64,000 nucleotides of DNA from Antedon mediterranea (Eukaryota; Echinodermata; Crinoidea; Comatulida; Antedonidae), in NCBI RefSeq assembly GCF_964355755.1, contig NC_092672.1, positions 6,634,001-6,698,000 on the forward strand. Reading direction: 5' to 3'. Every line of letters begins with the position of its first letter. Position 1 is the stretch's first letter. The position numbers were made by a program, and so were the translations under genes. Under the pieces are notes generated by a model, which was not told the origin of the DNA, ran no database searches, and was given only the letters and a program-made list of their open reading frames with translations. Below, piece after piece: positions 1 to 54,402 of the stretch.

Positions 1-295
1 TATCTGATATTTGTTAAAGAAGGCACGCATTTATTGAAAGTTGTATAGGATGTGCGTATGGTTTCCACAATATTATTGTAAATAACAATATAAATTTAAA
101 ACTAGAAAAGAAAAAAAAAAATAAAAGCACTAATAGAAGTGGGTGTACTGTCAGTAAACATTATTTCAACAATTAAAGGTATTAGGCCTATTTGGTAAAA
201 TAATATTATTACATTATTCCCATGACTGTAACATTACAGCTGAGGACAAAAGTATGCATTTAACATAGTATATTTAACAATGTACTTTACTACAG
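1..295. other. intron 3' end upstream of the YHYH exon
   Basis: No coding signal is visible. The stretch ends in a pyrimidine-containing acceptor (ctttactacag, AG at 294-295), so I read it as the end of the last intron of the YHYH gene that enters from the left edge. It holds one copy of the palindrome TAGGCCTA near 183. Confidence 0.55.
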
Positions 296-657
296 GAATT
301 TCTATCAACGGTATACCATTCTACAATCCATGGACCAATGATGGACAAAATGCTGTCCTCGGGGAGAGATTCGACGACTGCGATGGTCACCCGGATAAAC
401 GAGGTCGATACCATTATCACAAAATGCCGAGTTCATGTGTCTTCACCGTAGAGGAGGGCGTTGCTTCGACTATTATAGGTGTTGCACTCGATGGATTTCC
501 GATCTACGGACCAATTGACGAAGATGGCTCTCGACTGAGGACGACCGATCTTGACGAATGCCATGGCAAACACGGCACAGACGGAAAGTATCGGTACCAC
601 GTGACCGACGATTTTCCCTACATACTCGGATGCTACAAGGGAGAAGTTGGCAATTAA
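296..657 (+). CDS. YHYH-domain protein, terminal exon (gene runs in from the left)
   Basis: The open frame matches the YHYH domain family, named after its Tyr-His-Tyr-His signature; the biochemical role is not established to my knowledge. Visible marks are a GISINGIPFYNP start, a DDCDGHPD segment, GRYHYH about 38 residues into the exon, a GVALDGFPIYGP core, and a second DECHGKHG...YRYH half followed by FPYILGCYKG, which is how these proteins end. An ATG at 280 opens the same frame, but a splice acceptor at 294-295 falls just before the conserved region, so I take 296 as the exon start, entered in phase 1 with the split glycine codon. The stop is TAA at 655-657. Only about 120 residues are here, so the N-terminal part lies outside the window. 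Candidate poly(A) signals AATAAA occur at 656-661 and 733-738. Confidence 0.9.
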
Positions 658-16200: not shown

Positions 16201-19200
16201 TATTTTAGTAAATTACTTTCAATAAATCTATAATTATATTATAATCATGAATCATTCCTGATTTAAATGCAAAATGTGCAAAATAGATCAAAAACTATAC
16301 TCGTTTTGTAGTTACGAATATGACTGGTGATATTCGTCAACACGAATACGCTTTACGAATATGAAATGGGGATCAGCTCAAAAGTTTCACAAATGTATGA
16401 CGTATCCGTTTTCGTTATCGTATTCGTAAGGTTGCGAAACCTCCCTACTGTATGCGAGCACCATCCTGGTTAGATCTTGCAACGCAAACGCAATTTATAA
16501 CCAGACCATATAACCCCCCAAGGGCAATCATTAACGTAACATTTCCATTTGTATCGATCAAGACTTGGACGGATCACCTGATGGTATGGAACGCTTCTGA
16601 GTATGGTGGATTGGGTACGATAAAAGTTGATAAATCAGCTATATGGATTCCAGACATAACGTTGTATAACAAGTAAGTAGGTAGTGGAGCTGTAGCTTGG
16701 TGGTTAACGTGCTTGTTTTCCAATATCAATTGTTCAATGCCTCAAATTTTACGATTCATTACAAAATATTTTTTTTGTTGGCCGAATTCTGTCGTAAACG
16801 ACAATGCCAGTTAGTCTTACATTCATCTGAATGATGACGTAAGCCAGGACTGTTTAAAGCACCTTTGGCTGGTCTCAAAATTGACCAAAGGCTTCTTTCG
16901 TCTAGTATCCACTTTAACCAGAGAAGAGGCATAAGCCAATACATCTGAGGCAGATACTAGATGCAGGGGCTGCCATAAGAGTCAGCAGTGCTGATTTCAA
17001 AAGCCTGATGAGACCCAAGCTCCCGGTATTCCGAGCGTATCCGGACAACTACCCCCTGGACAATTACCACCCGGACAATGACCCTTCTAGGACAACTACC
17101 ACCCGGACAATTACCACCTAGGACAACTACCCTCTAGGACAACTACCCCCTTAGGACAACTCCCACCCGGACAACTACCCCCTAGGACAACTACCCTCTA
17201 GGACAACTACCCTCCTAGGACAACTACCCTCTATTCCAACTGCTATTCCCCTAGGACAACAACACCCTCTGAACAACCACACCTATATCATGACACCTAC
17301 ACCTTGGGTTATAATTACGATCTTGTAAAACTTACTGAACTTTAAAACATAGGGAGGAAATCGTTTTTCATAGTTTGACCTAGAAGTTTAAAAAAAAATT
17401 AATATCGCTACAGTTATTACAAAATATACTACAAATGTTAGGTACATACGTCGATATTTTAATAATTTCACCTCAAATATTGTTAAATATATAGTGTGGT
17501 ACAACGCCCCTCGTAGTCCCCTCTTTACACACCATTTGATTTTACAATACAATTAGCACCAAAAAGAAGCAGCTTGTTAATTTGGTTACCAATCCTAAGC
17601 TGTAGTTGTTCCTAGTGGGTAGCTAGAGGGTAGTTTTCCTAGGGGGTAATTGTCCAGGGGGTTATTGTCCGGGTGGTAGTTGTCCGGGTGGTAGTTGTCC
17701 TAGACCCCCGAGATGATCTCTTATAAAGCTCTAACCGGGCCCAACGTTGCTTAACTTCGGTGATCTGACGAGAACCGGTGTTTCGACGTGGTAAGGCCGT
17801 ATAATTACAGAGTTACTCTTTGTTGAATGCGTATGTAAACAAGTTTATACGTTGAGGATCTGTGTAACATATTTTTAGTGCTATACTACAGCTGGATGAC
17901 ATTATTTTCATGATATTTGCCTACACATATTTAACTAATTTATACATTATTATGTCCAGTACAAGTCGTCACCCGTAAATACGATACACCGTGCTTAATT
18001 AGAAAATAGTCTTTTTAATTACAAAATAGGATATGGGATAGAATTACTCAATGTTTTTATGAGTAGCGTGTCTAGTCTCATGAGACATTGCAAGATACTG
18101 TAAACTTGACCAATCTAGTTTATTAAATGAAACTGCAACGGTCGTCTATATAAATTGTATGGTATAGAAGATGATGATACATACATATATTAGTAATTCA
18201 GCGAAGTTTTATTAAAAAGTAAATCCAGTTGACTAGATTTTTCATAATAGTCTATATTAATACTACCCGAATGCATGATAATATTCATAACCATATAAAT
18301 TATATGGATAAACTAGATAATTATTAGTAAATTGTTAAAGAATTTATTATGTTTAAGTAACTACGATTAGTGTAAAAATAGCTCTGAAACAACAATTTGT
18401 TCATCTGCCACATAATCCAAATGGTAGTGGTAATTCTCCTAAAGATTAGAATTGGCTATAAGGTAGACTGGCCCTCTCATATACAGCTTAGGTTTGTTAT
18501 CAAGTAGGACTAATGCAACGGTGGTTGTCTACAGAGAGATTTGATTTAAATCAGCTTTGATCTGTTATGATTTCGTTAAAGGTTATGATAAAAACACGAA
18601 CCGTATCTTGAACGCGCTATTCGGAAGTTTATGCGTATGCGTGTCTATATTTCCACCTACTATTTTGCAGCACAAACAAAAAGACGGTAACTAATCGGTG
18701 CTCAAGAGGAGTGTTTCATTCACGTAATTAAATTCGACGTGTTTTATTTTCACACACTTGTTTTGATTGTACACGTTCCGACGACAACAGAAATGATCAC
18801 TCTGCGCATGTCTACAAACGTTGGATACATTTGAACGAAACTGTGGCTTCTTAGTTTTTCGTGACGTTAATCGTCGCAATAGCATAATAAAAGTATATAT
18901 TAACTTATACGTGTCATCGTCATATAAGAATCTCAATATTAAATAGAAGTGAGAACACTTTACGCTATTCTTAAATTGCTTGGCGCCTAAAAACTATTTC
19001 ATAATAGCGACACAAATGCATTTAATGAAGATATTTCACATTGGTTTGTAAATTCAACGATTAATTTTAATGAATAGCAATCTCATCGAATATATGGCTT
19101 ATAAAAATTACCACACTATCAATGATGGATATACCTACAACAGCAACAAGTATACATTTTCTACACCTGGTCATTCTATATGACTACTCGACAAACTAAT

Positions 19201-33297: not shown

Positions 33298-34779
33298 CGA
33301 AGACAATTTTAAACTATCATTAGTCATGCACTTTGAATTATCTTGTAATAACTACCATTTTAATATAGTATCAATGACTATTAATATAATGTAAATCCCT
33401 GTCCCATAATACCCTTTGAAATGTCATTGTATCATATTATGAGTTACAGTCATCTAAGTAGTTATAGATTACATGATTTCAATTAGACTTAGATCGACCA
33501 GTTATTTTCTACTTAAAGGATTTAAATGGTATCCAATGGGGAAAGGCCTAAATTTGTGCATTTTTAAAATACCTGGAAATGTATCGATATTTGTAAACGG
33601 TTTTGCGTGGATAGAAATGAATTGCGTGACGCGGAAACACCATGTACATACAGAGTACCTCGACGTTTGGATTTGTGCGCTTTGTAAAAATAGTAAATTT
33701 CGAATTCCACCATCCATACCACCAACATTTAAAAGCGCTAGAGATGCTTGATTTATTGGGCGATTCCATTGCGTGGACCATGATGTAGGCCTACACGCAA
33801 AGAGAGGTAAACATTGTGCTATGGGGGAATGTGTAATGCGTCATGGGAAGAGCTTGATAAAGTAAAGCATTATGGTATATAATAATTGTGTTTTCACTTA
33901 ACCAATGATTCAAAAACCGTCTGAAAAACACCTATAAAACATTGTATTGGTACCAATCGTCGTTGCCAACATAAAACTTTTCAATATGACGTCATAATTG
34001 TCTTATTTCATAGGTAGATATATTAATTTAAATATGGTCATTGGAAAATGGATTTATCATGTTTATATTTACTCGTAATGTTTTTAGGCGGGTGGTCTAA
34101 AACTAATGGCCATTTTCCATTAATTAATCAAAATAGTCCTGGTGTCCGATTTTGGCAAAAAATAAATGAATATAACGTTCATTTGGACTATATCAAACGG
34201 ACAACAAAGGCAAATCTGTTTACACTTTTTTCTAGGTTCACACTCTTTACTGGACATTTCTCCTCATTCGTTCAAAGAAAAGCGTCATTCAAAAAATCAG
34301 TATAGGCTAATACATACAATACTATATGCCTAATATAATGCGAAAACATAGCAAATTGTATACAATATATAATACAGAACAGTATAACTTAATATAATAA
34401 TCTTAAAAGTCAACCATTTATTGAGATTAGTTTTAAATTCAATTAAGATACTCTCACCATGGTTGGTTTCGCGTGGTCACGCGTAGATTGGCTCCGTTTG
34501 TTTTACTACACTTCGTCGCGTCGTGGGAGCGTCAACCGCTGGAGCAACCGTACGCAATAGGCAATATAATACATCGATATAGTCCTGTCTTCATTTCTGT
34601 AAGGCTCAGTCATTTTGTCGAGCTGCCTACACTGCTTCTGACGCACTGGAATACGCATTATCATACAAATCAGCGGTCAGGAATACAAGAACAAATGTAT
34701 TACAATGGATTTTAGCTAAATAGGAACGTTTACAATTGTTTTGCAGAGATTTTAAAGGTGATATATTTTGTAGCATACG
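33298..34779. other. upstream region of P2X exon A
   Basis: Two open frames (33473-33751; 34048-34305, the latter starting with a hydrophobic MDLSCLYLLVMFLGGWS) are not recognised and could be chance. 34463-34560 is richer in G+C and CpG than its surroundings (GTTTCGCGTGGTCACGCGTA, CGTCGCGTCGTGGG), which could be promoter or 5' UTR. ttttgcag at 34739-34746 is a possible acceptor for a leader exon. Confidence 0.4.
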
Positions 34780-34934
34780 ATGGCAAGGAGAAGGCGAATA
34801 TTGCCACTGTGGTATTGGTTACATTTAGATGCTTTTCTTGAGTATGACACGCCACAAATGGTTAGAATACAAAATTGGAAAGCTGGACTCTTAAACAGGA
34901 TTATTCAACTTGGTCTTATTGTATATATATTCAG
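34780..34934 (+). CDS. P2X receptor first exon (copy A)
   Basis: ATP-gated P2X channels open with a short cytosolic tail, a YDTPK/R motif and TM1. This exon gives 51 residues: a basic start MARRRR, then DAFLEYDTPQMVRIQNW, KAGLLNR and IIQLGLIVYIF (TM1 start), ending ATTCAG/GTAGGT in phase 2. That order and spacing (YDTP...NR..QL..) is diagnostic for the family. Later exons (extracellular cysteines, TM2) are not seen in the next 14.7 kb. Gln replaces the basic residue of the conserved TPK/R site. It may be an alternative first exon of the gene starting at 49612, or a separate or dead gene. Confidence 0.85.
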
Positions 34935-35925
34935 GTAGGTAAGGTTATTATTACTGTATATATATTATGTACATTTAATTTACATTATATATTGGAATGG
35001 CCCACTAAACTGTCTTTGATATCAGAAAGGTTTTACCAGAAATTATGACAATATTATTCAAGATGCCCGGTACGCATTGAACTAGGCCTATATAATTACA
35101 CATCTGAAACACGGGACGTTTTTTCCGCCAAATTTGACTTAGTTAGAAAATAGAATTAAGCACTCATCCTGTGCCTGTGTGTACATCGTCCATTTTACGA
35201 CTCCGTCGATACCTTTAAATAATTAAGTTATTACATTCGAATGCTTTGTAAAATAAAACATTTAACACAATATTTGATAATACAGTGTCTAATACATAGT
35301 ATAGTCTTCGTAACACTCTTATAGGAAATCAAATTTTCAAGTATAAAAGCACTCAGGCAACCCTAAGATTATTAGATAGACAATACTAGATTGAGACATG
35401 CACAAGGATGTACACGAATAATTTAAGAATTTCCATATCGTACATAAACATCTACACGAATTGATATTTTGTTTATAAGTTTATTAATATGGATCATATT
35501 ATACATAAAAAGAAATTGAATTGAATATTCATATTATAGATATAAAATATTTTCCACAAATCTCAACAGTGACAGCAAACATTGGTAACATCAGTGACCC
35601 CCAGGGGTTAAACATCGGGGTGAATCAAACTGGTTATGCATAATTATTTTTCAGAAAATGTCACATTATTTTTAATTATAACTTTAAAACAGCCAAAATG
35701 ACTAATTGTGACCACCTACCTGTACACAAAAGTACTACTATCCACGTGCACGTATGTTAGGTTAGCAACCTACCCTCGACACAAACGTACTATATTAACA
35801 TGGCCTACCCGGACGATATAAGGTGAACGGATACTATTATTGTATCCCCATAGTATAGGCCGACATCACTCCCACAGCTCTACAATACAACATTTAACCT
35901 TTACTGTTTCTCCACTTGGAACTAT

Positions 35926-36042
35926 CTAGTGTCACATACGTATGTAGCACTTGTATTAGGACTATGTTAAGGTTAGGCATAGCCTATGAAACAGGTTTCA
36001 CATGTGATTCATATGTGACAGTGTACAGAGTTTCCCTATGAA
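35926..36042. repeat. dispersed repeat family C
   Basis: TAGTGTCACATACGTATGTA ... GGTTTCACATGTGATTCATA, TGTGACAGTGTACAGAGTTT, CCCTATGA; ends echo the start in inverted form. Confidence 0.55.
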
Positions 36043-37017
36043 ACTGAAGAGTCAATGAGACGGGCTTTATACTAGATTAATCTATGCTTCTTTTAACGAC
36101 TGTCATCGTGCGTTTGTAATTGAAATGCCAACATGTACTCGTATTCAGAGCATGTCCAACGGAATGTTAGCAGGTAATGGTAATTTACAAAAACTCTTCA
36201 GCGCAAGTGTGCTAATATTTGCTTTGATTTGTTCAGTGCTCAGAGCATTTAGGTAGCAAAATTAGTCGTGCTGTATGAAAATTACAAGAAAATTATATAT
36301 GTCTAGAGGCGGTTGGCGAACAACATACTGTATACCCAGGTTTCCTACCTGTGTACATTGCATTTAGTTAATAGCCGATTAGTGTATTAATAGTAATACA
36401 GTTTCTTCGTATTCATTTTAACTAATTTCTGTAAATAATACTATTACGTAACACTAAAAGGGTCACTTTTAAGACTGACGCGTGTTTGTGCGATTTAGCT
36501 ACATGTAAAATTTAAACGAGACCTCAACGCTGAGAGACTTGCTCTGTGGCTGGCACATTCCGTGGCGAGATACCCAATGATCCGGCGGTAACAGAAGGTC
36601 CCTCAAGCTTGGAAGGTCAGTGGATAGGGTACATGTCCTGAAATTGGTTACAGACTGTACCCAAAAGAAAATCAGATGATTACAGAAATCAATAACATAC
36701 AAAAAGCCGTGACGTGTCACACACATGACGAGACGTCGTTGAAGACATGAAGCATTGAAGAGAAACAAGATGAAGAATCGTTGGCAAAGAAATCGTAGGA
36801 AGACAGACACGAGAACCTAAAGTTGTGTTGACGAGTGATTAGAATGAACACATTATTATACTACTCTGAACTAGATCGCATAGACGTCTAACCTAATCCA
36901 CTAAATCATAAATGTAGCCTAACACTGAAATAAAGTCTGACGCTACGAAAGCAAATGGGTAGCAGAATCTCGGTATTGTACTTCCGAGATAAAGGATCCC
37001 ACGTAAAATACATAATG

Positions 37018-37130
37018 AAAGCCTGTATCATGGACTCTAATCTAACCCTTAATCTAATCTTCCGTGTTACAGGTATCACACGTGAACAGCATGTGATGCT
37101 GTATTACGGAATTTACCTATAATTCCGACT
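37018..37130. repeat. dispersed repeat family C
   Basis: GCCTGTATCATGGACTCTAA, TCTAACCCTTAATCTAATCT, GTTACAGGTATCACACGTGA, GCATGTGATGCTGTATTACG, GAATTTACCTATAA. Confidence 0.65.
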
Positions 37131-38049
37131 AAAATATTGTGGAAATACAGCACTGGTGATTGGTTTTGTACAGATAATTCAAGGACATTATCTGCCTTAA
37201 GACCAACCATAATCAGTCTTTAACAAAAGATGAATAGCTTGTCAGATACAAATGCACTATTAATATTACCTCTTAAATTTTTTTATCACATTAATTAGTA
37301 ATCAATGATCTTCCTAATTATAATCGCATTTTTATACAAGCAATTCTGTATGGAATACAAACGACCAAGTGTATATAGTACGACCGCTACTTTCAGTTCA
37401 CAGCCTAATGGTCCTTGAGGAATTAGAGAGTCGTAACCTGTTATAATTAATTAAATATTACTTTCTTCGATTAGCCTTTAGTTAATTACTAGATAGCACT
37501 AAATTATCAGTTTTCCTTATATAGTTTGTAAATACGAAATACAAAGCTTACATTATAATTTTACAAATAAACATCACTCTTATTAGTGCATGGTTTATAG
37601 TCATAAGGAGATAGTGATCATGACGTAACAACGCGGTCGCCACCATTACCTCCACAATAAATTCTAATTTAATATTACACCCATCTTCATTAAACCAACA
37701 TTAGAACCACAAACCTAATCATCATTGATGTGTTGATCACTATCACTATGTCGTAATCACCACCACCACCACCACTCTGTAAGCATTATGTATTTATTGA
37801 TTTTAATCAACACAATCGTCTTTACATTTTACATGTTTGGCAAACATGAATCAATATTACGTTGATTATCAAAGAGCTCACAATGAGAAATTAATTTTAG
37901 TTTTTATATTATGTAGGAACATACTTCACAATCATTAAACATTACGGATGACATATGAGTTTGATGTATAACATAATATAATGATTAGGTCTATCGTTAC
38001 GGTTGGTATATTATTATTTAATCTTTATCAATTTTCATCTTCATCATCC

Positions 38050-39340
38050 ACAATTAAAATATTGTGTAACTAGTACACTGATATAACCCCCTAGTCGTCT
38101 CAAAAGATGTACTAGGTTTATTAAAATACACACAACCACATTCAAAATATTGAACTAGTACACCAGTGTAACCCCCTACACTGACTCGTCTCCAAAGATG
38201 TACTAGGTTTATTAAAATACACACAACCACATTCAAAATATTGAACTAGTACACCGGTGTAACCCCCTACACTGACTCGTCTCGAAAGATGTACTAGATT
38301 TATTAAAATACACACAACCAAAATCAAAATATTGAACTAGTACACCGGTGTCACCCCCTACTCGTCTCGGAAGATGTACTATGTTTATTAAAATACACAC
38401 AACCACAATCAAATATTGAACTAGTACACCGGTGTCACCCCCTACTCGTCTCGGAAGATGTACTATGTTTATTAAAATACACACAACCACAATCAAAATA
38501 TTGAACTAGTACACCGGTGTAACCCCCTACACTGACTCGTCTCGAAAGATGTACTAGGTTTATTAAAATACACACAACCGCAATCAAATTATTGAACTAG
38601 TACACCGGGGTAACCCCATTCTTGTCTCAAACGATGTAATATGTTTATTAAAATACACACAACCACAATAAAAATATTGAACTAGTATACCGGGGTAACC
38701 CCCTACTCGTCTCGAAAGATGTACTAGGTTTATTAAAATACACACAACCACAATCAAATTATTGAACTAGTACACCGGGGTAACTCCCTTCTTGTCTCGA
38801 AAGATGTACTAGGTTTATTAAAATACACACAACCACAATCAAATTATTGAACTAGTACACCGGGGTAACCCCTACTCGTCTCGGAAGATGTACTAGGTTT
38901 ATTAAAATACACACAACCACAATCAAATTATTGAACTAGTACACCGGGGTAACCCCATTCTTGTCTCAAACGATGTAATATGTTTATTAAAATACACACA
39001 ACCACAATAAAAATATTGAACTAGTACACCGGTGTAACCCCCTACACTGACTCGTCTCGAAAGATGTACTAGGTTTATTAAAATACACACAACCACAATC
39101 AAATTATTGAACTAGTACACCGGGGTAACCCCATTCTTGTCTCAAACGATGTAATATGTTTATTAAAATACACACAACCACAATAAAAATATTGAACTAG
39201 TACACCGGTGTAACTCCCTACACTGACTCGTCTCGAAAGATGTACTAGGTTTATTAAAATACACACAACCACAATCAAAATATTGAACTAGTAGGCCTAC
39301 ACCGATGTAACCCCTACTCGTCTCGGAAGATGTACTGATT
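38050..39340. repeat. minisatellite, 14 units of ~91/84 bp
   Basis: Unit starts TTGAACTAGTACACCGGTGT, continues AACCCCCTACACTGACTCGT, CTCGAAAGATGTACTAGGTT and TATTAAAATACACACAACCA. TTATTAAAATACACACAACC occurs 14 times. Variants lack ACACTG or read CCGGGGTAACCCCATTCTTG, and these alternate in a pattern, so there is higher-order structure. The sequence just after the array (39341-39420) is shared with a single-unit copy at 43574-43700. Confidence 0.95.
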
Positions 39341-39773
39341 TTTTTTTTTTAAATCCATTGTATATAATGGACCTACGATTTGTAGTCTTTATTCGGGAAG
39401 ACGACCACCGGAGTGAGCCGAACAATTACCGATATAATGGCTACTGCTCGGCCACTCGACCAATAAAATAACATAGGCTACAATATAAATAACATACAAA
39501 TGAAAAATGATGTTGCTCAAATGAACCAGCTATAAAGAAGGAAGGCAACAGATTGTTGATATACGATTGGGTATTTGAATTATGGATTGATGGGATAATA
39601 AAATAAATCACAATACAGTGGAGCATGGAGTAAATACAAATTGAATGAGCTGCTGATATTAAAATCCTGCATATGTTACTATGAATATAGTCCTACAGTA
39701 ATTCCGAAATAAATTCAGTTACAGTAACGCTACAGAAATGTATAATATAATAGGTACAGAACTATTTAAAAAG

Positions 39774-39925
39774 CGTTTTTAGTCGCGACTCTACAGCTCA
39801 CTATGTCGGTCGGGTCAGTTGGTTGGTTTGTCGGTCGGTCTGTTGGTCGGTCGGTCGGTAAACACTAACTCAATTTTGTGCACGCGACTGCAACCATGTA
39901 TATGTGCTTGTTAAAGTTACCTTGC
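39774..39925. repeat. AGTCGCG family element with (GGTC)n tract
   Basis: TTTTTAGTCGCGACTCTACA, GCTCACTATG, an expanded GTCGGTCGGTC tract, GTAAACACTAACTCAATTTT, GTGCACGCGACTGCAACCAT. Second copy of the element at 2319-2450. Confidence 0.7.
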
Positions 39926-42240
39926 GTTAGGACGAGGATGAATATGCCAATAATAATGTTAGGCCTCGAATTTTACTCGAAACTACACGCGCGTACCCAA
40001 TGTACAGTACTGCAATAATAGATACACTTGCATTGTACTGGTAGGCTTTTGGTTTACATATTATTAAATATTACTAATAATAAAAATGTATACATTGGAT
40101 CATAATAAAATGTGTATTGCAAATGCTACGAGGTCATTTTTGTAATATGCCTAAATTACAATTTCATTAAGTTCTATCACATGCTCTCAAACTATAATCA
40201 ATCAAAATCAATCAATCAAAATCAATCAATCAATCCAAATCAATAGCTTACAAAATATCTGTTACATGTATGTTTACCTTATTACGATCTAATTATTATT
40301 TATTGATTTTTGTTTATCACATAAAATATATATTTTTAAATGCATTTTCTCATTGTTAGATGCTAATTTAAACAAATGAAAATGAAATACAATAACAACT
40401 GAGTTTGTAGTTTCGTGTACGATACTCGCTCTGTAAACAGAGGAACCGTATAACATCTCCTTTAGACACCAGGGACACCTATTAAGGGAATCCTTTCCTG
40501 AAATAATTGAAGAAAATATATCTTATCGCCAACCTCAATGAGACACCGTTTTGGGTCCTGCAGGTGTCCCCTAAATACGGGTTCTACTGAACTGTTTTCA
40601 GTATTGCTTGGTGTGATTAAACATATGTACAGTATAACTAATTTTAGCTAGATAGGTAGGTGTTTAGAGAAGGGAGTGCTGTGGAGGAGGAAGGTGGCTT
40701 TATGTGTGGTCTAACTTTCTTACTACTACAACATCTAACTGAGCATCAACCACAATATATATTTTATTCCAAATTTATATCCATGCCCTACATATCATCT
40801 GATAAGATTATGTCAATTAAGAATTGCCATTTACACAGATATAGGATTACGGTTGTAAAAATAAAACATTAAAACAATAGTTTCATTACGTAATCAAAAC
40901 TCAAGCAGCCATGGAGAATTTAACATTTTCCTGGAAAACGATTGAAAACACGTTGTAAATGTAGATATGTCGCATGACAGTATACAGTATTAATATGCAA
41001 CGGATAATAACATAAATGTAATACAAGAAGCGAAGAACAAATAGTAGCGATTTAACAACAATTCACCAAAAGCGGGAAAAAAAAGAAAAAAAAGTGATGA
41101 ATGTTGACAAATTGATACAAAGTAAACTCTATCACTAGATTATCCCAAAGAAGTAATGGATTAGTAATGGATTAGTTATCTAGACTAACGCTTATTACGA
41201 CTCGATACACGATTATACTGTTAGTTCTTGATTCCGTCAATGACATAAAACACACATTTTGACACTCACGTTGAAAATGGCGATGAAAACTAGTACGGGT
41301 TTTATAAGCGCGCTTCAACTTGTTTTCTGTTCGGTACGTGGCGACGATACAAAACACACATCGGCGACTGCCAACATTACATACACTTGCGAAACCACGA
41401 AACAGAAATGGAAAACGATCAGGAAACATGCATTTTGACACCATATTCAAATAATGGTAGGCCTACTACTGGTAATATTAAAGGTAGTAGAAGCGCAGGT
41501 GAACTTGTTTTCTTCTCGGTACGTGACGACGATTTCGAGTCGAGGTGCCGAGCGGTTTAGACAGGTGGCGTTGCAAACTACAGCCATACGGTTTTTGAAC
41601 AGTCAGATCTCGATTATTTTATTTTATTATTATTTTTATTATTTTAACATTTTGTAGGCCAGTATACACATCTTTCGGAAAGAGTAGGGGGTTACCTCGG
41701 TGTTCTTGTCCACTTGGTCCCCTACGTATCGGGTTCTATTGTCGACCCAATGAGATGAAAAGGAATTGTGACTTTAATGACGATGACGTAATGACGAAAT
41801 TATAGCCGACGATCACGAAGATTATACACAATATTGAAAAGCAAGAAACAAATGTAGTAATTGATCCTCAATTATTTATGTTTGGCATATTTAGTAGATT
41901 CATTATTATTATTATAACGAATCCGAAATTACTACAAAAAATGTGATTTCAACACCGTTTGTATCTGACACTTGCACCGTACCGTGTCTTATAACTAATT
42001 ACAAAATATGTCTCAAATCTTTAGAGCTTATTTGAGCTGTAAGATTGCTTCTAAGTAAACTGCTGAAGTTATATTGCCATTGAAGTGAATTTTAACTAAT
42101 GGAAAAATCTAGAGCTGCACAGTAATAGTATATGTAAATTAAAACTGTTAAAACTATTCCTGGAAAACATGCTGAAATATATACAATGAGTTCTAGATCA
42201 AGGATCGGTGAAAGAAATGTTGTTTTAACTTACCATGACC
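39926..42240. other. intergenic/intronic DNA
   Basis: AT-rich. (ATCA)n-type simple repeat at 40195-40245, family D copies at 40455-40596 and 41685-41742. A CTTGTTTTCTGTTCGGTACG segment at about 41310 recurs as CTTGTTTTCTTCTCGGTACG at about 41503. Open frames at 41172-41450 (-) and 41454-41657 (+) are not recognised. Confidence 0.5.
40455..40596. repeat. dispersed repeat family D
   Basis: CCTTTAGACACCAGGGACAC, CTATTAAGGGAATCC ... GAGACACCGTTTTGGGTCCT, GCAGGTGTCCCCTAAATACG, GGTTCTACTG. Confidence 0.65.
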
Positions 42241-42254
42241 ACCATCAAATGTCA

Positions 42255-42575
42255 CGGCTTTGTTCGAACGAGAACTCGTTCAAGGGGTGAGCATTGCACG
42301 GCTTTATTCAAACGAGAATGCGTTTGCGGTATAATGCACAACTTATTCGAACGAGAACGGGTCTGCGCTATAAAATACACGGCTTATTCGAACGAGAACG
42401 AGTTTGCAGTATAAAATGAACGGCTTATTCGAAGGGGAACGCGTTTGCGGTATATAATTATGCACGGCTTATTCGAACGAAAACGCGTTTGCAGTATAAA
42501 ATGCACGGCTTATTCGAACGATAACGCGTTTGCGAAATACAATACACGACTTATTTGAACGCGTTCTTTAGTCTA
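42255..42575. repeat. tandem repeat, ~45- to 60-bp unit, about seven copies
   Basis: Units of the form CACGGCTTATTCGAACGAGA, ACGCGTTTGCGGTATAAAAT. Copies vary by several bases, so the array is older than those at 25 or 54 kb. Confidence 0.85.
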
Positions 42576-43339
42576 GATTACAAAGAGGAAGGTGGCGTTA
42601 AAATGTGATGAATCCCATATTGGGAGCTTCGCACTGGCTAATTTTAAAATACATACTCAGGGTGTACTATGCGTCTAAAACAATTACCAATTACATAAGA
42701 TCAATTAAATACAGTATATTAGTCTGAGAATAAAATTTATTCCCATAGAATACTGTGAACTTCGCGCTGGCAACCCGAGTAAGCTGTGCGACTCTCTATA
42801 AAAGTACATAAGGTATACACTAATGAAAACGGTACATTTTACAGTATGATGAAAAACCTAACATACTGTAATAAAGGCTGGAATATGACAAGTATAAAGA
42901 TTAAGAACATTTACAAGTAAACTTCTATAAAATCAGTGACGCAACAACTGAGGCATACACTAATGTCTGCTCTAATCTTACCGGTAAATCTACGGTTTGA
43001 AAAAACAGTGTGCAAATACATGCGTAATTCAATAATGACTTCATATTAATGTATACAGGCATTAATGTAAAATAATGTGTTATTTTCAGAGTTTTCCCAA
43101 GGCATTATAGCCTTAATGAATAGGGAATAACCTCACATGATTATAAAGTCGTCGACGTCATGGCGAATCTACATTTCAATACACTCACTTACTATCAATT
43201 TCTTTTGATTCACTAATGACCTAACAAGGAGGTAATAATTTGTATCTGAATGAGACTGAAATGTTTCAATGTATACACTGTTATCTTTTGACATTTTATT
43301 AGTATATTCTGTAAACATCACAATTATCCATGATCACCC
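42576..43339. other. gene-free stretch
   Basis: AT-rich, nothing recognised. Confidence 0.5.
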
Positions 43340-43349
43340 GATTCTGCAG

Positions 43350-43450
43350 ATGTCATTAGATAGACGCTAACTGACTATTGCAAGTCATCGCGAGTCGGCT
43401 TACTCGTTTTTAGGTGACTTGCGATAGTCAGTCAAAATTCATCTAGTAAC
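43350..43450. repeat. fold-back repeat
   Basis: Arm 43350-43388 (CATTAGATAGACGCTAACTG, ACTATTGCAAGTCA) is inverted at 43412-43450 (TGACTTGCGATAGTCAGTCA, ... CATCTAGTAAC). A relative of the left arm is in the YHYH 3' UTR near 698-729. Confidence 0.7.
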
Positions 43451-43573
43451 AGCTACAGACTCGGGTACCATGATTGAAATATTTAAATTGAAATATTTTT
43501 ATTTATACTGGGCGACTTCTTCAATCAAAGACTGGTCTCCCAGGGGGCCCAGTTATGATCAGTGGCTGTGATT

Positions 43574-43735
43574 TACTAATAAACCGGGGTAACCCCTACT
43601 CGTCTCGAAAGATGTACTTAAGTTCTTTAAATTGCACACGAGCTAGATGTGTACACTGGACCTACGTTTTATAGCTCTTATCCGAGAAGACTCGTTCTAC
43701 CACCAGAACCATGGAGGTAGAACGAGTCTACTCGG
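43574..43735. repeat. single-unit relative of the 38-39 kb array with shared flank
   Basis: One unit part (CCGGGGTAACCCCTACTCGT, CTCGAAAGATGTACTT) followed by a flank ACTGGACCTACGTTTTATAG, CTCTTATCCGAGAAGAC that parallels 39369-39410. It ends in a small inverted repeat around CCATGG with GTAGAACGAGT arms. Confidence 0.7.
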
Positions 43736-46700
43736 CGTCAACTTTGCAAGTCGAAATGTGTTAAGTAATTGAGCAGTGCTGAATTGGCACGTGGATAATA
43801 TGATTCTTTATGATAATTTTTCGTATCATGCTAGACGACACATACAAAATCCAGGATCAATTAATGGTTTCTATATAAGGTGGCCACCTCATTCAGCCAA
43901 TCAATTAACCTTTCGGCAAACTTAGCTAGATTAACTATTAGACTGATGGTTCAAAGATCGCAATAGTCGCAAAAAATGAGCTTTTAAGAGCAGTAAGTGC
44001 GCCTTTAGCGACAGTTTAGCGCTTACATTTGCTTTGTTTGTGCCATCGACTAAATAAAAAGTCACATGCTACATATCCAAAATGGCATTTATCACTATCT
44101 TTTCTTAAGTTAAGAATTGCTTATATTTAAAAAGGCTGTATTTATCAAACCAGTTCTTATTACTTATGGACTATGTAATCTGTCTATCAAACAATAAAGT
44201 GACAAACAAAATATGATGTACCCATAATGGACACGATGACGTCATATCACTACTACATTTGGGCACATCACACTTTTTTTTGCCAAACTAGTTTGATAAA
44301 AGCTGAAAATTCAATATTGCATGTAAAAAAGCGTTGTTCCAAATCGATTAATTTTATATGAAGATATAAGTTGTATCATTTTAACTAATCAGTCTAGCCA
44401 TCGCTGGTGACAGCTAAATTACGTTGGTTGTGTCTACTCTGGTACCCGTCCTTGCATTTTGTTCTTAAGAGTTTAATGACAGTCTTACTATATATAACGT
44501 TTCAAGTAATTAGGATTTAAAGTATAGTTACTAATTTTATATTATATAACCTTGAATATGTGCGTATAAATATTGACATTGTATTGTTTGGAACGTTTAG
44601 TCTAGACAATATTCAATGTTGCTGGTTTAGTAGATAAAGCATCATTCTCCACAATATCATTAAAGTTAATGTCGATTAATTGTATATTAAAAAAAAACAC
44701 AATAACAAAACGAACAATGTTAAGAAATTAGGTCACTGACGTCTCGTTCTCTCGCATGTTGAATTTTTAACTTAGATAACACGGCCGCGTTTCCTATACA
44801 TTAATCAATATAACGATCTTATGACTTAGCTAGGACTTAAATTGTATACAATCTATTTACCTATAAATGCAATGAATCAATTGCTTTTTCATAATCCAGA
44901 TATAATGGTTGAGGCGAAATCAATCATATGGTTGAAAACACAAACTCGTCTACATACGAGTGAACGTATTATAGTTATTTTTCATTTATATTGACGCGTT
45001 TAAAAGTCATCACACGCATGTCGTCATTTTTTTCACCAAGATGACGCGTTAAAAACCCTAGATTAATATCATAATGTCAATTTTACAGTAAATTTTAATA
45101 ATAAATTGACGCGATTGTAAACGAGTTAACGCATTATATATAAATTTCACAACTGCAAGTATAGACAAATTTAAATTACCATATTAAAACTGTTGAAAAA
45201 ATGATATTATATTATAAATCTATCAAAAGAAAAAATTATCCTAATAATTTACGTTATTTGTGACGTTACTATACAAACTTTGTGAAATTAGGCTGCTGCT
45301 ATCCGATTATGTGATGTAGATGGTTACAGCAAGGCAATCCAACAACAGGGTGATGCCGCTCCGGAGATCAAAAACTTTATATGTGGCTGCGACAGTTACA
45401 CGCCCCTACAGATACTGCACACGAGGAGAATAATATGTACATAGTACAGTACTGTTGGTATTTTTCAAATCAAATCAAATATATCAAATAACTGTTACGA
45501 ATTCATCTTGGCAAGTCAAGCTCAGTGTCCTGTTGTTGTTAGATTGCCTTGGTTTTAGTAACATTTTTTCTCTACAGAGGCTACTAATAGAGTGAAGCTC
45601 AAAATCTCAATTTGGCAAACTTCCTTAGTTTCACATACCCTCCCTCATCATGTTTAGCCTCGTGATATATTTTACCAATCATTTGTTTAAAAAAATTACT
45701 ACAAATAAGTAATTAGAATGCTTAGCTCTTCTGAACTGATTTCATTAAAAAAAATAAAAGCTACGATAAAAATGTTTTATTTTTTATATAATTAACAGGA
45801 CACTTTCCCGTGAAACAGAACGAGGGCCAATATGGTGTAACACCACTACAAGTGTCTTCTAGGGATTATATGGTATATATTTTGACATTTACAATTACGT
45901 ATTCAAATGTAACCAATTACACCGTGATTAATTGCAGTATTGTTATAGCTATTTATAGTCGGAAATAACTAAAAGTCCTATAAAAAAATATTTTTATTAT
46001 ATAGCCCATATTAACAAGAACAAAATCCCAAATTTAATTATGTAGAAGGCCTTACCGAACACTAGAAAGTAAATGATACGTTGTGTGTTCATAAGCGTAA
46101 AGTTTCGGTTGTAGAAATAGATGGCGCAATAACTAATTTCCATACTTGCAATGCAACAGAGCTAGAAACGATAGAGGGCGTTAAGTTTCAAAACAATATT
46201 GATACTGATGCAATTAGCCAGTACGGTATGAAATTACCTTCCCTAATACTTTAACGTGAATTATGATACCTTTTATTGTTATACACAATTCATAAAACAC
46301 CGCTGAGAATAGTTTTTACAATCACTGTTTTTAATATGAAAATACCGAGAGTATTTTTTTATAGGAAATCGATAACAAACCGACAATAAATCATTAGAAA
46401 ATAATACATGAAATAGAAACATTTGCACACAGCAGCTGATCGAATAATAGAGGACGACAAACGAGTGAGATTTATCTGATATTCGATTTGTTTTAAATGT
46501 TCATAACAACACATATTTATCACCCACCTGACGAACGACGGAAGTACGTAGTACTTGTCCCTCTTTTCCAAGCGGCTTTTAAAATCCAAACAAAGTGCTT
46601 TTGTTTAATGCGTCTCCCGTTATAATGTATAATCCAAATGGCAAAGCAATGTTAAAAACACACACGCGAAAACATACATACTGAGGAATATATCTCAGAC

Positions 46701-47760
46701 AAACAATTTACGTCCCAGAATGTATGCAAATTAGTCTCCAAGCGGCATTTTTCACAGTACAAACTCGTTCGTGGATAATTGTAGTGCAAAATGATTTTGT
46801 CCTAGCGCCCCCTATGTGTTTGATTATCAGCCCGTATCCTACTGTACAGACAGTACAATTCAACTTCTCCTTATTTCACATTAAATGTCTATCATTTACT
46901 GTGTAGATATTCTTTGACTAGAATTAAAGTGATCGAATAACGAAAATTATGGCTACAGATTCAATTTGAACCATTATTACTTTATAGACTACATTTATGT
47001 ACTCTGACGACATACAATATTTAAACGTATGTTTAAAAGATGTATTGTCCTCCAAAAACATAAAAAATGAAGATTGATAAAAAGACTTTGAATAGGCAAT
47101 TTTTGCAGTTTTAATAAAGTTAATTACTTCCGTGGAAAAAACTAAAAAAAACCCCCAAAAATAAACGATTAAATTCAACCAAAAACCCATTGACTTCCAG
47201 TTAATTTAATTTTTTTTTTTGCTTTAAATGCAGTTTTGTTTACAATTTTTGGTCAAAGTTAATAATTGTTATGTGAGATTAAAATGGCACATTCAACAAA
47301 AACAGGAGAACAATATCTTTAAGTGAATGACAGAGAACATTTACTTAAATGTACGTAGCAGTTAAATACTTATATAGTAGAAATATAAGCAACAAACTTG
47401 ATTGAAATTGTAAAAAAACATCTTTGCTCGAAGAATGATAATAACAAGAACGCCAAATAAAAAAGGAGTGTAATATCGGTTTAGATTTATTTAGCAATGT
47501 ATATTGACATTGTTATATACATTAGTAAAAAAGGTTCATCTGGATCACTGTATAGTATATTAAATAGTAAAATTTTCTTTTGGATGATCCAAAGTCGAAT
47601 AAAATTCGTAAACTTACGTTTTTTACTCTAGCTTTCGCTGGTCAAACGACGCAGCTTAATCATGAGTGAGTCTCTGTATATACAATATTGCAGGGATCTT
47701 AGAGATAAAGGTTTATTTTCTTTAGCGGTAAGATACTTTTTAAAAAAGAAATATATCACA
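43736..47760. other. gene-free stretch
   Basis: AT-rich. Family B copy at 44195-44300. No P2X or other exon recognised; open frames at 46359-46589 and 46924-47190 (both minus) match nothing I know. Confidence 0.5.
44195..44300. mobile_element. family B element, degenerate
   Basis: TATCAAACAATAAAGTGACA, AAATATGATGTACCCATAAT, GGACACGATGACGTCATATC, ACTACTACATTTGGGCACAT, CAAACTAGTTTGATA: the ordered family B motifs with diverged ends. Confidence 0.6.
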
Positions 47761-47763
47761 AAG

Positions 47764-48572
47764 GGCCTGTTTCTGCTGCAACTGCTCAAAATACGGTATA
47801 AAATACGGTATTTTTTATACCGTATTTTTTAGTACCCCGTTTCTGCTAACAATACTTCTTGGGTGGTCGTGTTAAATTTCATCTTTTTAACCCAAATTGC
47901 CATTCATTTATTTGATCGATAATTAAAAGTCGCAATAAAGGAAGTTTTACGTCTCACTTTCAACAGCCTAGCCCCTAGTGATAGAGATGTTGTGAGAGCA
48001 CAGAAAACATCGTAATGGGGACAATTAATTCGTTCCCTCCCCGAGTTATTGTATTTTGCAATGTTGTACTGCTTTCGCAGGCTCTTCAGCTTTGAGTTTA
48101 CTTGCTTTGGAGACAAGTCTATTCCATACTCCTGCTTTATTTTTTTAGAAATGTCTTTATAAATGTGGTTGTCCCTTTTATTACCTTTTAGTTGGCCAGA
48201 CATTTTAGCTTCCCCACACAAATTTATTTAGTAAAACTGTGACGTCTTCGCTCCACATTTTCGCCGAATATATATATACACGTGTGTAAAACAGCTGATA
48301 GCGACAGAAAATAAAAATACGAATGTTGACCTCTGTCATGTAAAAAAAAAATACGGTATTTTTTATTGGCAGCAGAAACGGGTACAGAAAATACGGTATA
48401 AATTTGTAAATACCGTATTTTATCCACAAATTTTGTGGGGAAAATACGGTATACAAAATACGGTATATTTTTTATGAGCGCAGTTTCTGCTGCCAAAAAT
48501 ATACCGTATATATACGGTATTCAAAAAATACCGTATAATATACGGTATTTAGTTGGCAGCAGAAACAGGGCC
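47764..48572. mobile_element. 810-bp DNA transposon derivative carrying a Myb/SANT remnant
   Basis: Terminal inverted repeats GGGCCTGTTTCTGCTGCAAC and GGCAGCAGAAACAGGGCC, with AAA (or AAAG) outside both ends as the possible target duplication. Inside both ends are many copies of AATACGGTAT/ATACCGTATT: three near the left end (47794-47836) and at least eight near the right (48350-48550). Between them, on the minus strand, is a frameshifted Myb/SANT-like DNA-binding domain. This combination points to a PIF/Harbinger-type or similar element that has lost its transposase. Confidence 0.82.
47904..48258 (-). pseudogene. Myb/SANT-like DNA-binding domain, frameshifted
   Basis: The likely start is ATG at 48258-48256 (MWSEDVTVLLNKFVWG), the usual first helix; around 48215-48225 the frame shifts by one base and the domain continues GEAKMSGQLKGNKRDNHIY, KDISKKIKQEYGIDLSPKQ, VNSKLKSLRKQYN, SGRERINCPHYDVFCAL. 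This is the trihelix type of Myb/SANT domain found in the accessory protein of Harbinger transposons and in host genes derived from it. The family usually has a W at each helix; the first is present. After FCAL similarity stops. No DDE transposase is in the element. Confidence 0.78.
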
Positions 48573-49541
48573 AAAGAAAATCATGAAAGTTTCATACAAT
48601 ACACACTGGAAAAGATGTGAAAAATTTAAACTGTTCACAGAGATTACTTATTTATATATATACAGATGAAAATATAAGAAAATAACAAAAAATGGAGAAC
48701 GTCACACATGATAAAAATGACTCCAAATATCATAGTTTTAATAATAAACCACTATTGCTGAAATTCAGATAAGATTAGTCAGGGATGGCGATCCCCCTGG
48801 GCCGAATTATTCACACATTACCATACACGTAGCATGATAGGCTACTTATCTATTCCCAGGAGCCTAACCACTGAACTATCATACTTGTTTTGCTATAAAC
48901 AACAACGTCTGTCTAATAACTGACGTAGATGACTATTAATTAGTAAATAATAACAACACGTGTAGTAGCTGAGAATGGTTTATACATGATAAAGATGATA
49001 AATCAAGGACAAATATCTAATTGTGATGTTTAAATTTTATCCATTTTAGAACAGTATAGCGCCCCCTGTAGTCAAGACGGCACATAAACTAATCAAGTCT
49101 TTTCACTTCTGAAATCTAAACTACGCATTACGTTCATTTCGGATGAGCACAAGACTTATAGAAAGTGTCTATGCAAGTATACCCATTTCCAGCACTAGTT
49201 TTCCAAAGTAAAACAAAAAACTAAAGTATCTTAAGCTATTGAATTTAAAACACAGCCATGTGAATCGACGACGGTGGACCCGACTTTGGACGACGACGTT
49301 CGGCGATAAATATCTGTAATTTATTAAATCTCTGAAGGAATAAAACCGGCATTTATAAGTTCTTCAGTAGGATTATTGTGCCGATCGCCGAAACTTTTAA
49401 TCATGCAATGTACTTCACTTTATATGGAACTCTAGTTGTCATACCTTCCAGGATTGTTGGTGCTCCTTTACGAATTTTAGAAATTTCTAAAATTGGAACA
49501 AATTCGGGTGATTGTTGCGTTTTCACTTGTGTGACCACGTG
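48573..49541. other. upstream region of P2X exon B
   Basis: Contains a tRNA-like A box on the minus strand near 48877 (TAGTTCAGTGG), possibly a truncated SINE, and otherwise AT-rich DNA; GACGACGGTGGACCCGACTT near 49267 is a small GC-rich patch. Confidence 0.45.
48838..48893 (-). repeat. tRNA-derived SINE head, truncated
   Basis: Minus strand reads TATGATAGTTCAGTGGTTAG, GCTCCTGGGAATAGATAAGT, GCCTATC: a perfect A box but no clear B box, so a decayed head rather than a tRNA gene. Confidence 0.4.
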
Positions 49542-49549
49542 TATATAAA
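49542..49549 (+). promoter_or_regulatory. TATA box of P2X exon B
   Basis: TATATAAA 63 bases before the ATG. Transcription starting about 30 bases downstream (near 49575) would leave a short leader and would skip the out-of-frame ATG at 49557. Confidence 0.5.
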
Positions 49550-49611
49550 TCGTTGTATGTTATCTGTTGAGTGTTTTAACAGAAGATCTTTTTATAAAGG
49601 AAGCTATCATT

Positions 49612-49775
49612 ATGTCGTCATTTAAGAGATTCCACACTGCTGCCTCTATGTGGGGTAGAGCTACATTAGACTCGTTTTTGGAGTATGACACCCCTAAGAT
49701 GGTTCATATTAACAGCTGGAAGGCCGGTGCAACTAATAGACTTATACAGTTGTTGATTATCACATATGTAGTCGG
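49612..49775 (+). CDS. P2X receptor first exon (copy B)
   Basis: Encodes 54 residues: MSSFKRFHTAASMWGRATLD then SFLEYDTPKMVHINSWKAG, ATNRLIQLLIITYVVG (start of TM1), ending GTCGG/GTAAGC in phase 2. FLEYDTPK, NRLIQL and YVVG are the classical N-terminal signature of ATP-gated P2X channels, and the Thr-Pro-Lys site regarded as a kinase target is intact. Compared with copy A it shares LEYDTP.MV.I..WKAG..NR.IQL. A TATA box is at 49542. The following exons were not found in the remaining 14.2 kb, so intron 1 is long or the gene is broken. Annotated as a partial gene. Confidence 0.88.
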
Positions 49776-51089
49776 GTAAGCTATATAACATTAATTATTA
49801 ATGTAAACAAATACACTACGTGTCTTAACATACCGACACACGAACGAGTCATGTCAATGAATATGTAGGCCTATTCTTGAACGTTTTTGTTTATTTTGAT
49901 TATTGTGCAGAGCTAGGATAGACAATTAATTCTCAATGTACATATTGGTATATTTATGACGTCCATGTAACGTGGAGGAAGTGTAGCCTAATACCGTATG
50001 CCAACTCAAAACTATCGTTCAATATATAATTTCCACAACACATGCCAATGCATTTTAAGTACCCTTTTGTGGTCATTGTCTAACCCAGTTCCATAAACTT
50101 GTTTGTATATTAATATTAATACCATATTTTTAATTAAATCAAGAAATATAATAATGTACAATTACGACAGTACGTCTCTGATCTACAATGTCAACATTAT
50201 TATATATAAATTACATGGGTTATATTAATTAGGCATCAAAAGAACCCCAAAACACGAGCGTAACTAAGCATGCCTGCGCAGCATGATATCACTGTGGTCT
50301 TCCTACTGCCAATAAAAGTCTCCTTGGAATGCAATAAGGGTGGTAATAAGATAGAAATGTAGCAATGTTATTATGTATGTTATTTCCTATTAGACCTAAT
50401 TAATTAATTTATTAATTTCCGAAACTATTATATTAAACAGTGTGGTGTCATGGTGTCAATATTTAGGTATGTGCAATTATTTAAATAATAATTTTAGTTT
50501 AAATGTAGTGTATATTGCAATCACTTATTGTACAAGTTCTGAATAATTGATTTCTAAAACAAAAATTCAGATGAAAAAACAAATTCCAATCCACAATGAA
50601 CAAGAATATTAAATTAATTAAATAACTCCTGCAGATGTATAAATGTATATTTCCAAGATAATTAGAACAATCGTTTCAACGAAAACAGGTACCGTATAAT
50701 AATAAAAAATGATTATACGAATTCTAAAAATAGATTGATGAAATGTATAACATGTGGGCATTCGTTCTATTATTCGTAGCTTGATCAATATAAATTACTC
50801 TAATCTATCTGCTTAGATTTGCCATTGGAGTTATAGTTTTAAAATTCGCGATTATAATTCAATATTGTTATACATTATGTATAATTATATAATTAATGAA
50901 TTGTCTGTACCTTGTGTATGCATCATAGAATACAAATAATCACCGTAATTAGGTTTTATTTCTGTAAACAATACTTCGCGTTAAAGGGGTACTCCGGGTT
51001 TACATAATAAGTGGGGTTATCAATGTTGTTGCAAAGTTGTATATGTTAAAACAAACAATAGCAATTTTAAACCAGGTACTGTATAAGGA

Positions 51090-53789: not shown

Positions 53790-54402
53790 CAGGTGCGCGC
53801 ACATACATGTATGCAGTAACGATTATAGTACCTTATCAGGTGCGCGCACATACATGTATGCAGTAACGATTATAGTACCTTATCAGGTGCGCGCACATAC
53901 ATGTATGCAGTAACGATTATAGTACCTTATCAGGTGCGCGCACATACATGTATGCAGTAACGATTATAGTACCTTATCAGGTGCGCGCACATACATGTAT
54001 GCAGTAACGATTATAGTACCTTATCAGGTGCGCGCACATACATGTATGCAGTAACGATTATAGTACCTTATCAGGTGCGCGCACATACATGTATGCAGTA
54101 ACGATTATAGTACCTTATCAGGTGCGCGCACATACATGTATGCAGTAACGATTATAGTACCTTATCAGGTGCGCGCACATACATGTATGCAGTAACGATT
54201 ATAGTACCTTATCAGGTGCGCGCACATACATGTATGCAGTAACGATTATAGTACCTTATCAGGTGCGCGCACATACATGTATGCAGTAACGATTATAGTA
54301 CCTTATCAGGTGCGCGCACATACATGTGTATGCAGTAACGATTATAGTACCTTATCAGGTGCGCGCACATACATGTATGCAGTAACGATTATAGTACCTT
54401 AT
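53790..54402. repeat. 47-bp tandem repeat, 13 copies, near-perfect
   Basis: Twelve copies appear identical at 47 bases and one carries two extra bases (GTGTATG near 54327). Each unit begins CAGGTGCGCGCACATACATG and ends GATTATAGTACCTTAT. Each has a 23-base alternating purine/pyrimidine run including the 12-base palindrome CATACATGTATG. The end is sharp at 54402. Confidence 0.98.

Follow-up and report, generated by a model that had tools for sequence, protein, structure and literature searches.

Two candidate alternative first exons of a P2X receptor gene in the crinoid Antedon mediterranea

In the 354 Mb genome of the crinoid Antedon mediterranea, a stretch of 64,000 nucleotides (C3:6634001-6698000, hereafter the window) contains two exons, called 1A and 1B, that each encode the N-terminus of a P2X receptor. 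These are probably alternative first exons of a single P2X gene and the product of an old duplication of exon 1, a reading to which we give a probability of about three in four. The pair was noticed in an earlier, sequence-only reading of the window, which proposed a gene with two alternative first exons and named as alternatives two adjacent P2X genes with very long first introns, and 1A as an orphan exon left by duplication. Here the next 28 kb on the right were added to the window, giving a region of 92 kb that contains no N.

One set of downstream exons and two first exons

Both first exons are found where the sequence-only reading had placed them, with 14,677 bp between them, and both end in phase 2 on consensus donors, after 34934 and 49775, as it had described. 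It had seen no second P2X exon, which is true within the window, and had suggested extending the sequence rightward to look for exon 2 and the ten-cysteine ectodomain of the receptor. Exon 2 begins 3,162 bp past the right edge, and the added sequence contains a single set of P2X exons 2-11 (window-equivalent positions 67162-88777) on the same strand as 1A and 1B, together with the ten cysteines. The borders of these exons were set from genomic DNA alone, by requiring AG/GT junctions and a reading frame that matches P2X. Beyond exon 11, no final coding exon could be identified with confidence.

The first base of exon 2 completes the codon that is split at the end of either first exon, giving YVV-G-YVIVWNHGYQ with 1B and YIF-S-YVIVWNHGYQ with 1A, and the joined proteins (isoforms A and B) stay in frame up to exon 11, with lengths of 398 and 401 residues. 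Against the Pfam P2X family (PF00864, cut-off 27 bits) the match covers profile positions 1-360 of 361, with 417.1 bits for isoform A and 422.9 for isoform B. Over about 390 residues isoform B is 46.3% and isoform A 45.5% identical to human P2X4, in a sequence that agrees with the compared stretches of PDB chain 9bqh. The ten ectodomain cysteines (138, 148, 154, 170, 182, 188, 236, 246, 280 and 289 in isoform B) are encoded by exons common to both isoforms. Isoform B also contains the motifs KVKG at 77, NFR at 309 and LTKAFG at 326, which we take to be the ATP-site residues of this protein. Such residues serve agonist binding in P2X receptors, according to passages of the tardigrade P2X paper (PMC2633282).

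That exon 1A belongs to this family can be seen from a search of the whole genome with its peptide. At an expectation value (E) of up to 10 there are three matches, namely 1A itself, 1B (E 2.5e-10, 56% identity over 43 amino acids) and exon 1 of the other P2X gene of this genome (5.1e-8, 47%), so the resemblance to P2X is not due to chance. Extended by the start of exon 2, the 1A peptide matches 15 distinct solved P2X sequences (E <= 0.001), the best of them a P2X4 at 2e-9. Taken alone, exon 1B scores 31.6 bits against the Pfam P2X profile and exon 1A 26.8 bits, which is slightly below the cut-off. The first transmembrane segment (TM1) remains hydrophobic in isoform A, with a mean of 2.19 versus 2.24 in isoform B.

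A further complete P2X gene adjoining that of 1B, with 1A as its first exon, is very unlikely. Exon 1A does have its own start, and no similarity between the flanks of 1A and those of 1B is detectable, as might be expected of separate genes, but a second set of exons 2-11 is found neither between 1A and 1B, nor in the 34 kb left of 1A, nor in the remainder of the 92 kb, and no N interrupts this region. A Pfam search of the genome gave 12 P2X exon matches, all of them within this gene or a paralogue 2.5 Mb away (C3:4.196-4.201 Mb), the only place where other exons 2-11 were found. A family search of a whole genome may overlook individual exons (1A and exons 3, 4, 6 and 11 are absent from its matches), and for this reason six-frame searches of the 92 kb were added. 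With human P2X4 as the query these found no further P2X-like exon in the region (lowest non-self E 0.31), and with the 11 exon peptides the lowest E outside their own exons was 0.12, the match between 1A and 1B apart. Taken together, the Pfam search and the search with the 1A peptide reveal no P2X gene in the genome beyond these two, and no exon-1 sequence besides 1A, 1B and that of the paralogue. Given a single exon set here and one other P2X gene 2.5 Mb off, the two adjacent genes with long first introns are close to refuted, and we reject them. The paralogue, on the minus strand, is compact, the distance between its exon 1 and the exon of the second transmembrane segment (TM2) being about 6 kb, versus at least 39 kb here.

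There is also only a slim chance that 1A is used in some other way, spliced before 1B or to a non-P2X exon so that it would encode a short N-terminal/TM1 peptide or serve as a non-coding leader. Four acceptor-like sites (first exon bases 49368, 49436, 49452 and 49481) do lie in the 312 bp 5' of the 1B ATG, none of them closer to it than 131 nt, and other exons may exist in the 14.7 kb that separate 1A from 1B, where a Myb/SANT-like frame is found on the minus strand. Exon 1A is, however, an intact P2X coding sequence in the correct phase for exon 2, and joining it to the acceptor-like sites leads to a stop in four of four cases, so that a P2X protein would come from 1A only by skipping 1B to exon 2.

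One P2X gene with two alternative first exons would thus occupy at least window-equivalent 34780-88777 (54 kb) of the + strand, partly beyond the window. Transcripts from upstream of 1A would reach exon 2 by removal of an intron of 32.2 kb, and a possible acceptor AG just 5' of 1A would permit an upstream exon of 5' untranslated region before it. Transcripts from 1B, where a TATA-like box is found 70 bp 5' of the ATG, would use a 17.4 kb intron. An in-frame stop precedes each ATG, starting 9 nt before it in 1A and 66 nt before it in 1B. Both products would have a common ATP-binding ectodomain and TM2; their cytosolic N-termini and the greater part of TM1 would be different. Of the model put forward in the sequence-only reading, the alternative first exons are supported at the genomic level by the one downstream set, the same strand and phase, the dissimilar flanks and the undamaged 1A, while we infer the part that concerns separate promoter use by 1A and 1B.

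Age and constraint of exon 1A

Exons 1A and 1B are 58.5% identical over 41 amino acids, a level similar to the 58% over 48 amino acids seen between the two P2X genes in exon 1. When the other exons of this gene are compared with those of the paralogue, seven of nine show 42-59% identity, with exon 4 giving only a chance-level alignment and exon 7 no alignment. The exon 1 duplication therefore looks old. Two other origins of 1A were considered and rejected. A retrocopy does not fit, since the splice donor is kept and the sequence following it is unlike exon 2. A recent segmental duplication does not fit either, since 701 bp around 1A and 481 bp at 1B match only themselves in the genome (E <= 0.01); this flank DNA search did not even link 1A to 1B, and it says nothing on old duplications. 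Nor were further duplicated exons of the gene found in the 92 kb, where the sole non-self matches at E < 0.1 are those between 1A and 1B.

An old duplicate may also have lost its role. That 1A is an orphan, either a duplicated first exon or the sole remnant of a tandem P2X gene, which recently went out of use and is now drifting, is in our view unlikely but the chief rival reading, and several observations fit it. On the one hand, the start, the 51 codons, the phase and the donor of 1A are all intact (the donor agrees with the consensus at 8/9 positions, compared with 7/9 for 1B), and the core YDTP..NR.IQL is preserved. In neutral simulations starting from 1B and run to the observed 55 differences in 129 nt (20,000 runs), a mean of 12 and a maximum of 21 of 43 residues remained identical, and the open frame was kept in 10% of the runs; the observed number, 24 of 43, lies above this maximum. 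Under neutral substitution starting from 1A, the exon stays intact with a chance of 0.19 at 0.1 substitutions per site and of 0.02 at 0.3, and with indels (at an assumed rate) the proportion of runs that leave it intact is 5% at 0.1 and 0.5% at 0.2 substitutions per site. The intact start, frame and donor of such a diverged exon argue against long neutral drift, and in this respect the orphan exon of the sequence-only reading is weakened.

On the other hand, several results weigh against a pair of alternative first exons that are both in use and are in line with an orphan. When only half of the 1A-1B differences are made neutral, the simulated identity has a mean of 25 of 43, which is the observed level, and the open frame is kept in 23% of the runs, so this test rules out drift only if it spanned the entire divergence. 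With the paralogue as a third sequence, 1A has 9 unique residues and 1B has 2 (relative-rate p = 0.035). The unique nucleotide changes are about equal in total, 18 in 1A and 20 in 1B, and are distributed over codon positions 1, 2 and 3 as 8, 4 and 6 in 1A and as 3, 5 and 12 in 1B (Fisher p = 0.12), meaning that the concentration at third positions is not seen in 1A. These comparisons concern 43 codons with saturated third positions, where polarised counts are weak and the numbers thin. Exon 1A is furthermore not among the matches of the Pfam genome search at E <= 0.001, and the basic residue of the N-terminal motif discussed below is missing from it. The ratio of nonsynonymous (dN) to synonymous (dS) divergence is unusable here, as dS between 1A and 1B is saturated at a dN of 0.41 (NG86). 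The faster change of 1A at the protein level indicates that it is either under weaker constraint or selected to differ.

Feature positions and neighbouring genes

The features of the region are collected in Table 1. The nearest recognised gene to the left of 1A encodes a Cys-loop receptor, nicotinic-like by eye, of which two exons carry Pfam domains and one was recognised by eye only. Between its exons lies a match to 5S ribosomal RNA, which covers 85 nt on a model of 120 positions and is perhaps a pseudogene or a short interspersed element derived from 5S. Further left are a single long open frame that is carbohydrate-sulfotransferase-like and an open frame with a YHYH domain, a domain that to our knowledge is uncommon among named animal proteins. 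The Myb/SANT-like DNA-binding frame between 1A and 1B, which has inverted repeats near it, may belong to a DNA transposon. Two tandem arrays are present as well, one between 1A and 1B and one in the intron after 1B.

Table 1. Positions of the P2X exons, of associated signals and of other features, in window numbering (window-equivalent for exons 2-11)
Feature	Position	Strand	Remark
P2X exon 1A, coding MARRRRILPLWYWLHLDAFLEYDTPQMVRIQNWKAGLLNRIIQLGLIVYIF + 2 nt (phase 2)	34780..34934	+	155 nt, ATG at 34780
Splice donor, exon 1A	34935..34940	+	CAG/GTAGGT, consensus at 8/9 positions
Possible acceptor AG (TTTACAATTGTTTTGCAG)	34745..34746	+	33 nt 5' of exon 1A ATG; pattern only
P2X exon 1B, coding MSSFKRFHTAASMWGRATLDSFLEYDTPKMVHINSWKAGATNRLIQLLIITYVV + 2 nt (phase 2)	49612..49775	+	164 nt, ATG at 49612
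Splice donor, exon 1B	49776..49781	+	CGG/GTAAGC, consensus at 7/9 positions
TATA-box-like TATATAAA	49542..49549	+	70 bp 5' of exon 1B ATG; pattern only, AT-rich region
P2X exon 2	67162-67345	+	AG/GT borders, continuous frame
P2X exon 3	70362-70433	+	AG/GT borders, continuous frame
P2X exon 4	82780-82849	+	AG/GT borders, continuous frame
P2X exon 5	83037-83136	+	AG/GT borders, continuous frame
P2X exon 6	83361-83447	+	AG/GT borders, continuous frame
P2X exon 7	84103-84229	+	AG/GT borders, continuous frame
P2X exon 8	85937-86064	+	AG/GT borders, continuous frame
P2X exons 9-10	86472-86628	+	AG/GT borders, continuous frame
P2X exon 11	88664-88777	+	AG/GT borders, continuous frame
YHYH open frame	244-654	+	81.5 bits
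Sulfotransferase-like open frame	7543-8385	+	Sulfotransfer_2, 188 bits
Cys-loop receptor gene exons	16401-21881	+	16401-16673 by eye only
Cys-loop receptor, Neur_chan_LBD	19486-20085	+	Pfam
Cys-loop receptor, Neur_chan_memb	21378-21881	+	Pfam
5S ribosomal RNA match	17720-17804	-	46.9 bits (gathering 38)
Tandem array between 1A and 1B	38048-39293		about fourteen 85-bp units, 88% match
Myb/SANT-like open frame	47907-48227	-	48 bits
Inverted repeats	48469-48580		
Tandem array, intron after 1B	53790-54402		thirteen 47-bp units, 99% match

Known P2X receptors and the N-terminal motif

A direct precedent for one P2X gene with two first exons is found in rodents, which means that the proposed mechanism is of a kind already known. 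In P2rx7, an exon 1' that lies inside intron 1 gives the variant P2X7K, with the N-terminus and most of TM1 replaced (42 vs 39 residues), and passages of the papers on this variant report a higher agonist sensitivity, a slower deactivation and a preference for T cells (PMC9329894, PMC3360091, PMC4436801, PMC3407210). The exon is described as known from rodents only (PMC9329894). The exon 1 swap alone alters the sensitivity of cell types to ATP and NAD+. There, as proposed here, the choice between two first exons changes the cytosolic N-terminus and the larger part of TM1 on a common body. The alternative exon of P2X7K is, however, located downstream of the canonical one, whereas in Antedon the divergent 1A is 14.7 kb upstream of the canonical-looking 1B, and expression is proven for P2X7K, while the present gene is P2X4-like, from an invertebrate and known from its genomic sequence. 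The present case is thus set apart from P2X7K by its exon order, by a gene that is invertebrate and P2X4-like, and by the loss of the basic residue. Compared with P2X4-type channels, which it resembles at the identities given above, the gene is distinguished by its two candidate first exons and by an isoform A without the basic residue of YXTXK/R.

Among invertebrates, two splice forms are likewise described for the P2X gene of Aplysia (AcP2X), and they differ by a 147-base deletion/insertion; alternative first exons are not described in the passages concerned (PMC7943599). From the same passages, the P2X genes of sea urchin and acorn worm number at least two and have many isoforms, so annotated isoforms with alternative first exons may already exist in databases. 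Among the papers listed by searches of an open-licence library, which lacks many subscription papers, none was seen to describe alternative first exons for an invertebrate P2X.

The difference between the two isoforms that can be read most directly is in the motif YXTX[K/R], which is YDTPK in isoform B and in the paralogue, and YDTPQ in isoform A. This site, of the protein kinase C (PKC) type, was the sole feature fully conserved among the P2X receptors that had been characterised up to 2009, all of which share it, as stated in passages of PMC2633282. The predicted product of 1A and exons 2-11 departs from this motif, not from the P2X family. In P2X1, the mutation R20C leads to a smaller peak current with unchanged decay time, potentiation by phorbol ester is lost in R20C, R20A and R20I alike, and R20A and R20I retain the potentiation mediated by mGluR1alpha (passages of PMC2704932). 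In P2X2, T18A makes the channel fast desensitising (PMC7008354), and the equivalent threonine is present in isoform A. As isoform A keeps the threonine and is without the basic residue, altered PKC-pathway regulation is the safest prediction, rather than a certain change in desensitisation: isoform A may be without phorbol-ester (PKC-pathway) potentiation, and its current may possibly be smaller.

A more far-reaching view, which we hold tentatively and at somewhat less than even odds, is that 1A and 1B are an ancient pair of first exons kept by selection, as old or nearly as old as the two-gene P2X family and independent of rodent P2X7K. The pair would then switch between a form that bears YXTX[K/R] (B) and a form without it (A), placing sensitivity to the PKC pathway, and perhaps gating, under the control of promoter choice.

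The N-terminus and TM1 help to set the gating, desensitisation and regulation of P2X channels. If the proposed first-exon pair is real, a single gene could yield two differently regulated channels, and the K-to-Q difference at the cytosolic motif that is reported to be the most conserved of the family would be a natural experiment on the role of this motif. It would also be a second, independent case of a first-exon swap, this time in an invertebrate, and would point to first-exon choice as a recurrent way of tuning P2X channels.

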